Below are positions 6,120 to 13,397 of a stretch of 39,992 bases of DNA, in pieces. Under the pieces are notes generated by a model. That model did no database searches. It saw only the letters and a program-made list of their open reading frames with translations, and had not been told where the DNA came from. Each line of letters begins with the position of its first letter. Within the stretch, counting starts at the first letter, position 1. This DNA comes from a virus. A program made the translations under genes and the position numbers. Location: the IMG/VR virus record IMGVR_UViG_3300020380_000066, positions 1-39,992 of that record, one strand, 5' to 3'.

Positions 6120-6542
6120 CTATTTAATTTTAATTAACTTGGGTTTCTTTTCTTCTGGAATAATTCTTTCCAGTAGTATAGTTAAAAGACCATCCTCTAA
6201 CTTTGCGTCTTTAACTTCAATGTCATCTGCAATTGTAAACTCACGGGTAAACTTTCTATATGATATACCTTTATAAACGTTTTTCGTATCATGTTCGTTT
6301 TCTTTTACAGATTTTATTTTTAATACATTATCTGCAACTTCAACTTCAATATCTTTTTTACTGAAACCTGCAAGTGCCATTTCAATTCTAAAATTATATT
6401 CATCGTCCTTCATAATATCATATGGAGGATATGTTTTAGTTACTCTTGAACTATGCGCAAGCTGATCGAATAAACGATCAAAGCCAACAGCATAAGGTGT
6501 TAATGTATTAAAGTGATCAAATAAAGTTAATGTTTGATTCAT
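6120..6542 (-). CDS. Small heat-shock protein, HSP20/IbpA type
   Basis: 140 aa, the usual length for IbpA. The N-terminus has the IbpA signature GFDRLFDQL, followed by YPPYDI. The alpha-crystallin domain runs from about residue 45 to 130, with MALAGFSKKDIEVEV and the conserved A.L.DGLLTI near residue 117. The tail IPEEKKPKLIKIK resembles IbpA. HSP20 proteins are ATP-independent holdases that keep unfolded proteins soluble. The gene lies among capsid assembly genes rather than in the early region, so it may act on virion proteins late in infection (inference). It was probably acquired from a bacterium. Confidence 0.93.
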   Translation of the reverse strand: MNQTLTLFDHFNTLTPYAVGFDRLFDQLAHSSRVTKTYPPYDIMKDDEYNFRIEMALAGFSKKDIEVEVADNVLKIKSVKENEHDTKNVYKGISYRKFTREFTIADDIEVKDAKLEDGLLTILLERIIPEEKKPKLIKIK

Positions 6543-6893: not shown

Positions 6894-9044
6894 TTATTCT
6901 CCCTTTAAGATTTGTTTGGCCATCATTATTATTTGAGCATAATTAGGATGCTCAGCTATTGGTGCGCCTTCCTTAGTTGCTTTAATAGTAAGGTCAGCCC
7001 ATTCTTGATAATGTTTATCTATAGCTACCGCTAATTGTTTTGCATTATCATCCTCGGTATTTTTAGTTTGAGCATTAGTAAAACTGACGTTAGCCTCCGC
7101 TAAAGCGGAATCTGCTGCAGCTTTATTCTTTTCAAGCTCTTTCATTTGTTCAGCATCTTGCGATTGCTTTTGAATTGTTTGAGCAGCCTTCTGCTTAAAC
7201 TCATCAGTAGTATAGTCCTCTAAGAAATCATTACTATCTAAGTTCATTGCTTCAATTAACTTAGTAGCTAATATAGCAGGTGCTTCAGGTTTAATAACCA
7301 TTCCTACACCCTGCTTATTTAATGTAGGTAATATTTCTCCACCTATCTTAGATAGCTTTTGAATTTGATTAGCATTAGAATTTTCACCAATATCTAATAA
7401 AATTTCTACATCCATATTAGAAGGTAAGCTATCCATATTAACAGTACCGTATACACCTTCTAGGTTATACATTATTTTACCCTTTACATTCTTACGCATA
7501 GTTTCATATATACCAGCAACTAGCTTTTTAAATCCAGTCTCAGCAAACCTACGTGCAATATGCTGTATTCTCTTTTGCGCTGCGGACTGCACAGCAGCTA
7601 GCTTTTGTTCTGAGTTACCTGATATATACAAAGTATCATTAAGGCCCTGTGCGGCCTTCGACATGCCCGTTGCTTGCTCCTTTATTAGCTGTAAGTATTC
7701 TAATAATGGTACAGTACCTGTAGATATTGTTTCAGGTTGCATTTGTTGTACTGCATTTACTGGACTACCGTTAGTTGGTATAATCTGTTTAGGCTTCATA
7801 TTCTGTAATGCACTAAAGTCAACTACATTAGGATCTGCAAGTTTAGGTGAATAGTTAGTTAAGTAAGTATTCTCTACAAATCCACGTAGTATAGCAGTAG
7901 ATGCTAGGGTAGATGATCTAGTAAAGTCTGCCATTGACAAACCATAAAACTCAAATGGTATGTCTATAGGTGTAATAGACGCTAATGGTATGCTATCAAT
8001 GTCTTCTTCATACATTATATAATCGCCAACAGTTATTATATGCTTTAATTCTGCAATACCGTCACCATCTCTGTCCACATTTAGCCACGATTCTGTAACT
8101 GTTACCGGTTTATTAGCTTCTAATGGCGCATCATTCTCTACCATGCTGCCTGATATGTACTCTTGTCCTGTAATTTCTTTTCTTGCAGCAACTTCTTGCG
8201 AATATCTTAGACTACCTGCGTAAGCTGTATCACCTAATTCGTCCCATTCTGTAATATTTGCAGTTTCTTCGGGATAATGCTTACGTAATTCTGATCTTGT
8301 CATCTCTGTTTGTATACCAACAAAAGATGCTTCTTCAATTGACGTAGCTTCACGCGATATTCTAAAGTTTTCTGGTGGAACTAACTCTAATTTTACACGA
8401 GATCTGTCAATTGTTTTCTTTAATCGTACGTTTATGTACATTAATTCTGCTTGTGGCTGCATACTTGTTAATGGATCTGCAGGTGCAAAGTCATTTTCAA
8501 ACTGTAATTCGCCAACAATTTCTGTATTTTCATCTGAAAGTAATTCATCTAGCTTAGCTTGTGAAATTCTTTCGTATTCTTCAAACTCATGTTTCTTATC
8601 TTCTATATATGTCCAGCGACATACAGAATTTTTCCATAATAACGCAGCTTTAATCCACTGAGACATAAGCTCCCAGCCGTTATTCTTTTTAAACAAACAA
8701 TAATTTACTATAGCTGAAGCATCTTTGGCCGCAGCAAAGCTGCCTGGTGAGTCATCATAAGGCACAAAGCGTGCTAGTTTATTATTACTTAAGAATAAAT
8801 CTGATATAATTGCAGTATATGCTTCAACAACTTCTGTTGTAGATGTATCAACAATGGTACTTACGCCCTGTGGTGTTAAATGACTTTCAGGTACACCAGC
8901 ATATTCATATGTAGCTTTTAATCTTTCTCTTGATAGATCTGCTGAATCCAGCCAATCACCGCTAGAATTCATTATGCCTCTATCAATAAGCTCAACTAAT
9001 TCATCATCAGTTACAGGTTCTTTATATCCATAAGGTTCGGTCAT
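6894..9044 (-). CDS. Portal protein
   Basis: 716 aa, the size of large podoviral portals. Early residues include TTEVVEAYTAIISDLFLSNN and a region around 100-140 on packing helices with a Trp-rich stretch (LLWKNSVCRWTY). The centre has the conserved DRDGDGIAELKHIITVGD and a C-terminal helical part with ATGMSKAAQGLND, followed by a long Gln/Ala/Glu-rich coiled tail. The portal forms the dodecameric DNA gate at one head vertex and anchors the terminase. Its ATG overlaps the upstream stop (ATGA). Confidence 0.88.
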   Translation of the reverse strand: MTEPYGYKEPVTDDELVELIDRGIMNSSGDWLDSADLSRERLKATYEYAGVPESHLTPQGVSTIVDTSTTEVVEAYTAIISDLFLSNNKLARFVPYDDSPGSFAAAKDASAIVNYCLFKKNNGWELMSQWIKAALLWKNSVCRWTYIEDKKHEFEEYERISQAKLDELLSDENTEIVGELQFENDFAPADPLTSMQPQAELMYINVRLKKTIDRSRVKLELVPPENFRISREATSIEEASFVGIQTEMTRSELRKHYPEETANITEWDELGDTAYAGSLRYSQEVAARKEITGQEYISGSMVENDAPLEANKPVTVTESWLNVDRDGDGIAELKHIITVGDYIMYEEDIDSIPLASITPIDIPFEFYGLSMADFTRSSTLASTAILRGFVENTYLTNYSPKLADPNVVDFSALQNMKPKQIIPTNGSPVNAVQQMQPETISTGTVPLLEYLQLIKEQATGMSKAAQGLNDTLYISGNSEQKLAAVQSAAQKRIQHIARRFAETGFKKLVAGIYETMRKNVKGKIMYNLEGVYGTVNMDSLPSNMDVEILLDIGENSNANQIQKLSKIGGEILPTLNKQGVGMVIKPEAPAILATKLIEAMNLDSNDFLEDYTTDEFKQKAAQTIQKQSQDAEQMKELEKNKAAADSALAEANVSFTNAQTKNTEDDNAKQLAVAIDKHYQEWADLTIKATKEGAPIAEHPNYAQIIMMAKQILKGE

Positions 9045-9181
9045 CTACTACCTCCCTGATGCATAAGCACTTTCTTTTTTAAGTCCTGTAAATTTGATAC
9101 AGCATATGAACCAGGTTTAGGAAGAGTTCTAGGTTCTTTCTTTTTCTTTTCCTTACGTGGTTGTTGTATATATCTTGACAT
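9041..9181 (-). CDS. Tiny basic protein (46 aa)
   Basis: The frame starts at the ATG at 9181 after AGGAGCGGAAT and ends in an ATGA overlap with the portal start. The product is basic in its first half (MSRYIQQPRKEKKKKEP) and ends HQGGSR. Coupling to the portal and the good ribosome-binding site support it. Function unknown. Confidence 0.6.
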   Translation of the reverse strand: MSRYIQQPRKEKKKKEPRTLPKPGSYAVSNLQDLKKKVLMHQGGSR

Positions 9182-9197: not shown

Positions 9198-9659
9198 TTA
9201 CAATTTATTTAAAAATCTTGCTATATGATGTACAAATGGTAACAATGTAGCTGCCATAAATAGATTAACACCTGAGTGTGCTACAGCTATTCGTAATGTA
9301 TCACCCTTAGGTAAACCATCTGAAACAAGCAATCCTGCTAACCATATAGTTCCGGTTGTTCCTATATTAGCACCTAATACTGCAGCAACAGCAGAAGGTA
9401 AAGGTAAGAAACCACTTGCTACTAATCCTACGATTGCTGTTGTTGATAATGAACTTGACTGCCACATTAATGTACAAACAATTCCACCTAAGAACATTAG
9501 GTATGGATTGGCTATAAAAGGTTCAAGCTGTTCTACTCTACCAAGCGCTTTCATTCCGCCTGCAAACATTTTAAGTCCTACATAAAATACTATTAGTCCT
9601 ACTATAATTTTAAAAACTGGTGTATGATGTATTGAAGCTATATTAGGTAAATCTGTCAT
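9198..9659 (-). CDS. Half-size Na+/phosphate cotransporter (NptA/PF02690-like)
   Basis: 153 aa with about four hydrophobic segments. It carries the two hallmark motifs of the Na/Pi cotransporter family: QSSS at residues 67-70, and GANIGTT at 96-102, followed by VAHSGVNLF near 127. Family members take up inorganic phosphate with Na+. Full-length transporters carry two such repeats in inverted orientation; here only one is present, with no second copy next to it. It may be a dual-topology dimer, a partner of a host transporter, or something else. The membership is firm on motifs; the activity is inference. Confidence 0.88.
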   Translation of the reverse strand: MTDLPNIASIHHTPVFKIIVGLIVFYVGLKMFAGGMKALGRVEQLEPFIANPYLMFLGGIVCTLMWQSSSLSTTAIVGLVASGFLPLPSAVAAVLGANIGTTGTIWLAGLLVSDGLPKGDTLRIAVAHSGVNLFMAATLLPFVHHIARFLNKL

Positions 9660-9662
9660 GTC

Positions 9663-9869
9663 TTAGCCCTCGCATGTACATTCCTTTTTATTTGCTAGCT
9701 CTGCTAGTAACTCTTTATTTCTTTGCAACAATTTATAATGGGCTTTTTGTAATTCTTTTAAATCCATTTTAGTTAACCATAAAGCTTGCCTTGCAGATAA
9801 CATTTCTCTTCTTAATGTTTCTTCAAAACTTTCTTCATGGTTTTGCCATCCTTGTCCATTGATAACCAT
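9663..9869 (-). CDS. Small coiled-coil protein
   Basis: 68 aa. Almost the whole chain is predicted helix with heptad-like Leu spacing (LRREMLSARQALWLTKMDL, then LQKAHYKLLQRNKELLAEL), ending in a Cys pair (ECTCEG). No known family. It sits between the transporter gene and the EF-hand membrane protein. Confidence 0.55.
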   Translation of the reverse strand: MVINGQGWQNHEESFEETLRREMLSARQALWLTKMDLKELQKAHYKLLQRNKELLAELANKKECTCEG

Positions 9870-9870
9870 A

Positions 9871-10206
9871 TCATCCTCTTTTACTCATCCATGCTGATGT
9901 ACCCATGTATGCACCTACTATACCAGCACCTGATATATAAAATAAGTTACTTACATCTGATAGAGCTTCAACTCTTTCTAATGGTACCCATGGTAAAAAC
10001 ATAGCTACTGTAAACACACCCATACCTATTAAAGTATATCTGGCCATTCTAAGTTGGCCCAACTGCTTACGCAGTGCAGCTTCTGTTTCTTTTATTTCTT
10101 TTAAATGAGATAGTTCTTCATCAGAAACTACGCCATCACCGTCTTCATCATACTCATTAAATCTTGAGTTTTTCTCTAAGTTCTTCTGTATTGCTTTCAT
10201 TACCAT
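9871..10206 (-). CDS. EF-hand membrane protein
   Basis: 111 aa from the ATG at 10206 (MVMKAIQKN...). Residues 20-31 form a near-perfect EF-hand calcium loop (DEDGDGVVSDEE). A charged helix follows, then two hydrophobic segments (TLIGMGVFTVAMFLPWV, and FYISGAGIVGAYMG) ending TSAWMSKRG. I associate this arrangement with hypothetical proteins of marine phages. A holin or membrane-remodelling role is possible. The frame continues upstream to another ATG at 10260, but that lies inside the neighbouring gene and lacks a good ribosome-binding site. Confidence 0.65.
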   Translation of the reverse strand: MVMKAIQKNLEKNSRFNEYDEDGDGVVSDEELSHLKEIKETEAALRKQLGQLRMARYTLIGMGVFTVAMFLPWVPLERVEALSDVSNLFYISGAGIVGAYMGTSAWMSKRG

Positions 10207-10426: not shown

Positions 10427-10552
10427 TTATTTACATAGATCATCAAACTTTATTGAATGTATTCTATGTCTGCTTTTATCAAGTAATTTGTCTAATAATA
10501 TTTTATTTCTGTTTCCTATTAACCATAGCATTTGTTGAAATAAAAATATCAT
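10427..10552 (-). CDS. Tiny protein (41 aa)
   Basis: The frame begins MIFLFQQMLWLIGNRNKILL and becomes basic toward KFDDLCK. Its ATG overlaps the upstream stop (ATGA), and GAGG precedes it. The hydrophobic start may insert in a membrane. Support comes from coupling and the filled gap in an otherwise gapless operon. Confidence 0.55.
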   Translation of the reverse strand: MIFLFQQMLWLIGNRNKILLDKLLDKSRHRIHSIKFDDLCK

Positions 10553-10800
10553 CTGTGCCTCGCTACTTTCTTTGCAATTCGTTTTGGTTGTTTAGAGTGC
10601 TGCTTACCAGCTTTAGTATCTTTTCTTTTCTTCCTAGTTGTTGCAGCATACTCAGCGGCAGTTAAAGATTTTATCGCTGACGATGGCATATATCTTTCAC
10701 CTGTAGCTTTTGGACCTACAGTAGAATTCTTACCACTCTTAGTTCGCCACTTTTCTTTACCCCACTTCTTTAGACTTTTTTGACCTTTGGTTAAAGCCAT
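10549..10800 (-). CDS. Small basic conserved phage protein
   Basis: 83 aa, very basic. It reads SLKKWGKEKWRTKSGKNS, then GERYMPSSAIKSLTAAEYAA, then TRKKRKDTKAGKQHSKQPK. This matches a small conserved family I recall from marine viruses (possibly annotated DUF5872; unverified). The Trp and Arg/Lys pattern suggests nucleic-acid binding. Function unproven. Confidence 0.65.
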   Translation of the reverse strand: MALTKGQKSLKKWGKEKWRTKSGKNSTVGPKATGERYMPSSAIKSLTAAEYAATTRKKRKDTKAGKQHSKQPKRIAKKVARHR

Positions 10801-10973
10801 TATCTATAGCCCCCACCTTTAGCTTTATATTGTTTAGCTAACATTTGAGCTTTACGTGCAGACCATTGTCCTGGTCTACCACCTTTACCACCTGCTTTTA
10901 TTCTCTGAAAGAGTTGCTTACGCATAGTTGGTTTAGTATAATTACCTGCTTTGTTTACTGTACTTTTAGCCAT
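10800..10973 (-). CDS. Small basic conserved phage protein (57 aa)
   Basis: The frame begins MAKSTVNKAGNYTKPTMRKQ and ends QYKAKGGGYR, with RPGQWSARKAQMLAK in the middle. It ends in a TAATG overlap with the following gene. The sequence is like a tiny basic protein I associate with marine phage late operons. Likely nucleic-acid or virion associated, which is inference. Confidence 0.62.
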   Translation of the reverse strand: MAKSTVNKAGNYTKPTMRKQLFQRIKAGGKGGRPGQWSARKAQMLAKQYKAKGGGYR

Positions 10974-10974
10974 A

Positions 10975-11259
10975 TTACCATTTAACCTTATGTGACCAGT
11001 ATCTGGCGCTTAACTTGCTTGGGTTTGCATCTTGCGCATTATGTCTAGCATAATATGATTTCTTACGCGCTTTATCTTTTTTACTTGTAGGATTTTTACC
11101 AGCACCGCGTACGCCTTGCTGTCCAAATCTAATTGTTTTAACTTTATCACCCTGCTTAGCTACCACTACATGTGATTTAGTAGGATGCCCTGGAGTTCTT
11201 TTAGGTTTATTATAACCTGATACTCCGGCTCTTTTTAATCGTGGATCCCTTTCAGCCAT
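10975..11259 (-). CDS. Small basic conserved phage protein
   Basis: 94 aa. The C-terminal half has IRFGQQGVRGAGK, then KARKKSYYARHNAQDANPSK, and closes with SARYWSHKVKW. This FG..G...ARH...YW...W pattern is a conserved phage family I recall (possibly DUF6321; unverified). Its ATG overlaps the upstream stop. Function unknown. Confidence 0.62.
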   Translation of the reverse strand: MAERDPRLKRAGVSGYNKPKRTPGHPTKSHVVVAKQGDKVKTIRFGQQGVRGAGKNPTSKKDKARKKSYYARHNAQDANPSKLSARYWSHKVKW

Positions 11260-11726: not shown

Positions 11727-13397
11727 TTAAAGCCACTGTGTATCATCATCAAACAAAAAATTATCTGCTTTCTGCGACCAGGGTACTTTATTCATAGTTA
11801 ACTTGTCATAATGTGTTCTTAATGTTTCTAAGGCAATAGCTGTAGCCATAATAGTATCATCATGACACCCAGGAGCAGCCTCAGTTCTTCCGGAGTCGGT
11901 ACTAACATAATCTTTTAATTCCTGTATAATAGTACGTGATGCTATCCATATATCATCATTTTCTACAGCATTTTTTAAATTACCAATTATATGTGGTTTT
12001 GTTACCTGAGTTGTTTTAAACCCTGGTACCATACCTTCTTCTTTTGATATAGCCGAAATTTTTGTTTGTTTATATAAATTTATATAATTCATCTGTGCTA
12101 GTCGAGATAATGTTGCAACGCCCATTGAATTACTTTCAACAGTTAACAATGCATTATTATAATAGCGACCTAAGTAAAATAACAAATCACCAAACTTACT
12201 AGGGTCAATATAATTATCTCTATACAAAGCAATTACTTTTCTATCTGTGTCCATAACAACAGCTGCTGAATAATCTTGTCCAACACCTAATGCAACATCG
12301 GCAGCAAGAATATAATTACTATCCCAATCAGGAAACTCCCATATATCCAGATTGCCATCTTTCGATGCCTCCCACGTAAATGAATTAAAATCAAATATCA
12401 TTCTTTTATCAGGTTCAGCAGGTAATAACTTTTTTAATTTGTCCATTGCAAATACAGATTTACCTGCAGTAATAAATGCTTCATCGGGAGTTGCTGGGTA
12501 TTCCTGGCGGAACTTTAGTTCCCCACCTTCAGCAATCTTCAACCGACGCCAGTAGAGTTGTCCGTTGTTTAAGTTGTGATCCTCTACCAGTAGCTCTTCT
12601 TCTGAAGAACGTTCGAAGTCTTCCGGTGGTTCTCTGTAGTATTCAGAGGTCGTAAACCACGGAAGGAATATCGGTGTGTATTCATTCTCACCCTCTAATG
12701 CACCACGCCATAGTCTATAAAACTCACCTTGTGCACCATTAGCTGTTGACTCAAGTATAACTTCAGTACCCGGCGCTTCAGATATACCCTGAAACAAACC
12801 AGCTAATATTTTCTCATCATGTTGCCAGAAAGCAATCTCCGATAGATGTGCTATAGTCGGTGTAGTTCCACGGCCAGCCTCAGGACTACCCGCAGTATAT
12901 AATCTATATGACGATACAGGTTTTTCACCAGTAGCATCTTTTTTAAAGTGAGGTGATGAAATAACAATTTCTTTTGCATTTGATCGCAGCTCAGTCGGTT
13001 TATACAAAGAATCCATATTCCTTATAATATTACGGCTCATATTAAATAGTGCATCAGATGTTGCACTGTCATGTGCCATAACAACTGAACGAGCATGCGG
13101 TGTAAAATATGTTTTCCAGAATACTCTGCCAGCACAGTAAGTTGATATTCCTTGCTGTCTAGCTTTTAATATAATAGCTCTGACCTTTCCATTGTCAGCT
13201 AACTGTTTATCTAAAATTTCTGTAATTTTTTTCTGACAGTCATTGAACGTAAAGTTTACAAAGCCCCTCCTTGCATCTTTAGTAATAATCTTAATATTGT
13301 CTGATGCAAAGTCAGTAAAGTTATTCTGATAGTTATTTAGCTTTTTTCTTTTATGTTTTTCTTCGAGAAGCTGGATTAACTGTTTCTTCTTATTCAT
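11727..13397 (-). CDS. terL: Terminase large subunit
   Basis: 556 aa. The N-terminal packaging ATPase has a variant Walker A (KARQQGIST, residues 78-86) and Walker B-like IAHLSEIAFW (182-191, Glu187). The C-terminal RNase H-like nuclease begins with ADVALGVGQDYSA (about 370), then TVESNSMG, and closes with HDDTIMATAIA, giving the expected acidic residues. It pumps DNA into proheads at the portal and cuts it. This is the first gene of the leftward late block. A matching small-subunit candidate lies 4 kb away at 17413-17808. Confidence 0.93.
   Translation of the reverse strand: MNKKKQLIQLLEEKHKRKKLNNYQNNFTDFASDNIKIITKDARRGFVNFTFNDCQKKITEILDKQLADNGKVRAIILKARQQGISTYCAGRVFWKTYFTPHARSVVMAHDSATSDALFNMSRNIIRNMDSLYKPTELRSNAKEIVISSPHFKKDATGEKPVSSYRLYTAGSPEAGRGTTPTIAHLSEIAFWQHDEKILAGLFQGISEAPGTEVILESTANGAQGEFYRLWRGALEGENEYTPIFLPWFTTSEYYREPPEDFERSSEEELLVEDHNLNNGQLYWRRLKIAEGGELKFRQEYPATPDEAFITAGKSVFAMDKLKKLLPAEPDKRMIFDFNSFTWEASKDGNLDIWEFPDWDSNYILAADVALGVGQDYSAAVVMDTDRKVIALYRDNYIDPSKFGDLLFYLGRYYNNALLTVESNSMGVATLSRLAQMNYINLYKQTKISAISKEEGMVPGFKTTQVTKPHIIGNLKNAVENDDIWIASRTIIQELKDYVSTDSGRTEAAPGCHDDTIMATAIALETLRTHYDKLTMNKVPWSQKADNFLFDDDTQWL

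Follow-up and report, generated by a model that had tools for sequence, protein, structure and literature searches.

What is a sodium/phosphate cotransporter with only one of its two repeats doing in a phage genome? Two-repeat transporters are thought to derive from duplicated dual-topology halves, and living half-length relatives have, to our knowledge, rarely been found. In the window (by which we mean the whole 39,992-base virus record analysed here), positions 9198..9659 of the minus strand encode a protein of 153 residues that carries QSSS once, at residues 67–70, and GANIGTT once, at residues 96–102. Membership of the family is supported by Pfam PF02690 (E 1.1e-16; score 61.6 bits, cut-off 29.1), which matches in a single stretch covering profile positions 2–89 of 137, and by the NCBIfam model Na_Pi_symport (NF037997; score 57.3 bits, cut-off 50). 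No PHROG family matched the protein, and a profile search of the full record returned no second PF02690 match. The reading frame opens with an ATG that is preceded by GAC and, one codon earlier, by an in-frame stop; a GAGGG lies upstream of the ATG, and the gap to the preceding gene (9663..9869) is three bases.

The half-length form is common in viruses. Pattern scans of IMG/VR returned 439, at least 580, at least 595 and at least 589 related stretches, and relatives are encoded on at least ~600 IMG/VR contigs. Phage members of matching length, for which the original prediction proposed a search, do exist. We drew 137 distinct proteins from 311 loci, viral or from MAGs, many of which overlap. 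All 137 have exactly one QSSS, and none the two repeats per chain of the known transporters; the single repeat noticed in the window protein is borne out as a fixed trait of a large viral family. The C-terminus is fixed as well, with the chain ending 87–88 residues past the QSSS in 136 of these proteins. The segments WQSSSLSTTAI and LGANIGTTGTIW, which hold the QSSS and GxNIGT motifs, are invariant across 59 distinct proteins, PF02690 is matched at E 0.001 or better by each of the 51 relatives scanned, and the median dN/dS of close pairs is ~0.14, which shows, at the level of sequence, that the viral half-length gene is under purifying selection. Because both motifs are invariant and this ratio is so low, chance is excluded as the source of the reading frame and its motifs, and the evidence is that of a real gene.

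These same observations bear on the most prosaic reading of the locus, in which a two-repeat bacterial gene has broken down to the remnant seen here, or the assembly is at fault. Such a product would have half the usual length, as this one does. We nevertheless consider that reading refuted, and its probability negligible, given the C-terminal end shared among the distinct proteins, the low dN/dS, the fully supported viral clade described below and the occurrence of the gene on independent contigs in many contexts. A second repeat elsewhere in the genome, which had been named as the finding that would count against the single-repeat idea, did not appear: a search of 36 viral records, which range from 17 to 177 kb and are in many cases fragments, gave exactly one copy in each. 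One scan of viral contigs with a bacterial query, made with poor patterns, yielded no two-repeat version, and no close match to the viral transporter was found among ~50,700 phage records, a set that may omit very near records. The phoH gene is also present in 3 of 26 viral records with the transporter gene, with no clear link.

Cellular members of the family are built differently. Among 120 Pseudomonadota and 61 Bacillota genomes, matches to PF02690 or to the viral profile lie almost all in reading frames of at least ~300 residues with two repeats, so the premise that known transporters have two repeats per chain is correct for the bacterial PF02690 genes sampled. A set of 398 Pseudomonadota genomes gave one match beyond E 1e-15, within a frame of 709 residues. 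In the short bacterial cases that were opened, the apparent stand-alone single repeat dissolved: three were contig ends (L370–L372), and in the fourth (L369) a two-repeat gene had been frameshifted. When 84,980 genomes were scanned by pattern, one single-repeat match was produced, located on a 28-kb contig that belongs to a Chloroflexi MAG (L082); this is the sole close cellular match, and its contig may itself be viral or cellular.

Like the bacterial NptA-type Na/Pi symporters (PF02690, NF037997), the viral protein has a QSSS hairpin, a GxNIGT helix and an H..N helix. The NptA-type proteins, however, have two repeats per chain (284–709 residues in the 43 taken) and often a PhoU domain, whereas the viral chain has one repeat and is without PhoU. 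To which repeat, R1 or R2, does the viral one correspond? When the viral profile was set against these 43 bacterial two-repeat proteins, R1 matched better in 21 and R2 in 22, the R2 matches usually reaching viral position 130–147 and the R1 matches usually ending near 106. SLC34A2 (solved structure, PDB 9z60) is a chain of 646 residues with two inverted repeats, each of which aligns to the lone viral repeat, with 64 and 54 bits. Profile matches of this kind show the single viral repeat to be homologous to both repeats of the SLC34 and NptA proteins.

Phylogeny leaves more than one history for such a protein. When 109 repeats were placed in one tree, the viral proteins formed a single clade (100/100), outside both the R1 clade (80/43) and the R2 clade (88/76); the support for this placement is modest, and the viral branch is long. 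AU tests did not reject topologies in which the viral clade is joined to the halves of the 384–413-residue type (p 0.38 and 0.43). We tried to derive the viral proteins from a named bacterial half and set the attempt aside, as no single origin is fixed by the tree or the AU test. With modest support, a long branch and such p values, the viral protein may be either a relic from before the duplication or a derived half. That these proteins are a separate phage lineage branching at the R1/R2 split, working as a single-repeat antiparallel homodimeric Na/Pi carrier, whether as a pre-duplication survivor or by viral reversion, is a suggestion that we make tentatively and with some doubt.

The topology of the chain is central to how one repeat might suffice. 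A monomer model built from viral sequences alone was unusable (pLDDT 62), and a fold search from that model was meaningless; once further viral rows and eight repeats from bacteria had been added to the alignment, AlphaFold2 modelled the window protein with a pLDDT of 90.4. In this model helices span residues 13–37, 42–48, 51–65, 68–80, 86–111 and 119–151, and the break at 65–68 falls at QSSS. They are predicted to form TM1 (residues ~13–37), a re-entrant hairpin (51–80) with QSSS at its turn, a transmembrane helix (86–111) containing GANIGTT and another (119–151) containing the H128...N132 motif. Three crossings and a re-entrant hairpin, an odd count, would place the two ends of the chain on opposite sides of the membrane, and a second, equal copy must then be inverted. 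A fold search with the better model gave no clear PDB or BFVD match (best Z 6.2), and SLC34 entries were absent among the matches listed. Weak whole-length rows to a sorbitol PTS half and to INDY/NaDC3/YdaH-type carriers (Z 4–6) fell below the threshold for a claim.

Charge distribution offers a separate view of orientation. Over the same segments, bacterial R1 has a mean K+R bias of -3.1 and bacterial R2 one of +3.0; opposite signs are expected of inverted repeats, and they serve as a control for the three-crossing reading. The viral core runs from -2 to +4 with a mean of 0.25 over 28 representatives (the window protein has -1), and differs both from R1 (p 2e-9) and from R2 (p 4e-6) in tests that treat related sequences as independent. 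Once the whole N-tail is counted, the bias climbs to +4 to +6, as in R2, in 12 of the 28 representatives. A basic N-tail in many relatives could fix one orientation, which weakens the case for dual topology.

The window protein is, on present sequence evidence, best explained as a virus-specific, half-length but complete member of the NptA/SLC34 superfamily of Na/Pi cotransporters. A half transporter so strongly preserved, and never seen with a second half, probably pairs with an inverted copy of itself, and the chances seem to us evenly balanced that it forms an antiparallel homodimer in which two identical QSSS hairpins make up one symmetric Na+/phosphate site. The dual-topology homodimer of the original prediction is supported indirectly: three crossings per repeat, a near-zero core bias and an about equal fit to R1 and R2 speak for it, while the basic N-tail of many relatives speaks against it. 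Each chain would supply one structural repeat (TM1, the QSSS re-entrant hairpin, the GANIGTT helix and the H..N helix), and two identical chains would be inserted in opposite orientations. The dimer would form a two-fold symmetric substrate site, equivalent to that made by QSSS-1 and QSSS-2 within a single chain in bacteria and animals. It would carry inorganic phosphate together with Na+, most likely inward, and the imported phosphate would feed nucleotide synthesis while the phage infects. Dimerisation, antiparallel insertion, the direction of transport and the benefit to the phage are all steps that we infer, and specificity for phosphate and coupling to Na+ would follow from membership of the family. 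The absence of a clear match in the fold search and the low co-occurrence with phoH count against this account. Phosphate import is not a property that can be assumed for the superfamily, since YjbB is insufficient for it (PMC13170248).

That last observation lends some weight to a homodimer of the same build with another substrate or direction: export of phosphate, transport of another anion, or a Na+ leak that aids depolarisation or lysis. Membership of the family, which includes groups of unknown function, does not fix either property; an endolysin gene lies near the transporter gene in some phages (context c5), and Na+/phosphate symporter genes of estuarine viruses have been classed among genes for osmoregulation (PMC13288924). 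On the other hand, QSSS and GxNIGT both match the SLC34 repeats of known Na/Pi carriers, and lysis cassettes make up a minority of contexts, so we regard a different substrate or direction as rather unlikely.

The original prediction also allowed for a protein that modifies a host transporter. Host-modulating membrane proteins are known from phages, and a polypeptide of fixed orientation that does no transport by itself, but acts on a host Na/Pi transporter or some other membrane protein by pairing with it, blocking it or retuning it, would agree with the basic N-tail of many members and with a gene that is always single-copy in the viral records searched. A blocker, however, would not need the residues of the substrate motifs, all of which are invariant in the 59 distinct proteins although these come from unrelated phages. 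Bacterial NptA, being one chain, offers no free half with which to pair, and 57 of the 120 sampled Pseudomonadota are without any PF02690 match. We judge action on a host protein to be unlikely.

Does the position of the gene say anything about its use? It had been placed inside the late operon, and this was taken as a functional clue. For the window phage the presumed late position is borne out in gene order: the gene lies between that for the terminase large subunit (11727..13397), upstream, and that for an SU10-type portal protein (6894..9044), downstream, all on the minus strand, as are the neighbours that follow. Directly upstream, in the same operon, is a predicted coiled-coil protein of 68 residues (9663..9869), matched by no Pfam or PHROG family. 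Two genes upstream is a protein of 111 residues (9871..10206; phrog_27150, function unknown), in which an EF-hand-like loop, DEDGDGVVSDEE, precedes two hydrophobic segments, and whose position is kept in this phage group; it is at most a candidate participant in the function of the transporter. A basic protein of 46 residues (9041..9181) separates the transporter and portal genes and provides operon context only. A run of three genes after the terminase (10549-11259) encodes small, very basic proteins of 83, 57 and 94 residues, and an Hsp20 small heat-shock protein gene (6120-6542) sits within the block of structural genes. The phage itself appears podovirus-like, with an SU10-type capsid and its own T7-like RNA polymerase and DNA polymerase. 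Its nearest isolate, Roseobacter phage CRP-7 (60% identity in the terminase, 52% in the portal), lacks the transporter gene and has a terminase–portal gap of 741 bases, compared with 2682 in the window phage; none of the genes tested from the latter's gap is shared with that of CRP-7, and the tested genes of 10549-11259 had no counterpart there.

Elsewhere the surroundings change. The transporter gene occurs in about ten unrelated phage contexts, which makes the late-operon placement particular to the window phage and deprives it of general value as a clue to function. In other phages the neighbours include T4-like major head and scaffold genes, a T4-like DNA polymerase, ribonucleotide reductase, an exonuclease, portal or head-morphogenesis genes, a carbamoyltransferase and, nearby in c5, the endolysin, among others. 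Amid these unrelated neighbours the transporter proteins mostly remain 60–86% identical, which points to transfer between phages and to strong constraint. Right after the transporter gene of L048 (1083-5474, plus strand) is a reading frame of 1463 residues that fuses a head-morphogenesis-like region to a segment with a match to phage RNA polymerase, and its product may be a polymerase fusion carried in the virion; in L037, L041 and L054 the transporter gene has beside it a Nol-like carbamoyltransferase gene and a tandem run of three related genes, one of which matches a phage radical SAM family.

Virus-borne genes of this kind have been reported before. PF02690 was found in eight HMO-2011-type (subgroup I) marine phage genomes, with a suggested role in phosphate uptake (PMC9038755, 2022); these genes are phage-borne like ours; the passages considered here describe them by neither length nor repeat number, and they may or may not be of the half-length form. 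The sodium/phosphate symporters of algal viruses also travel in viral genomes, but those viruses infect eukaryotes and the proteins are full-length (459–534 residues, 9–10 TMs) and resemble host genes (PMC6163359). We came across no account of a half-length Na/Pi protein in the open-licence literature that we searched. Parallels in architecture are offered by UPF0016 and the EmrE/SMR-type dual-topology proteins, likewise single-domain forms of inverted-repeat transporters, although their folds are unrelated to that of the viral protein. Single, paired and fused forms of UPF0016 all occur in cellular genomes, and antiparallel homodimers were proposed for it from a weak K+R bias (PMC4067407). 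The single form of UPF0016 is thus cellular, whereas that of the Na/Pi family is found here in viruses. If the viral homodimer works, the SLC34/NptA group would gain a minimal form, whose mechanism could be dissected with one hairpin; and, if the proposal is true, a common phage gene would affect the supply of phosphate across a large set of uncultured phages.
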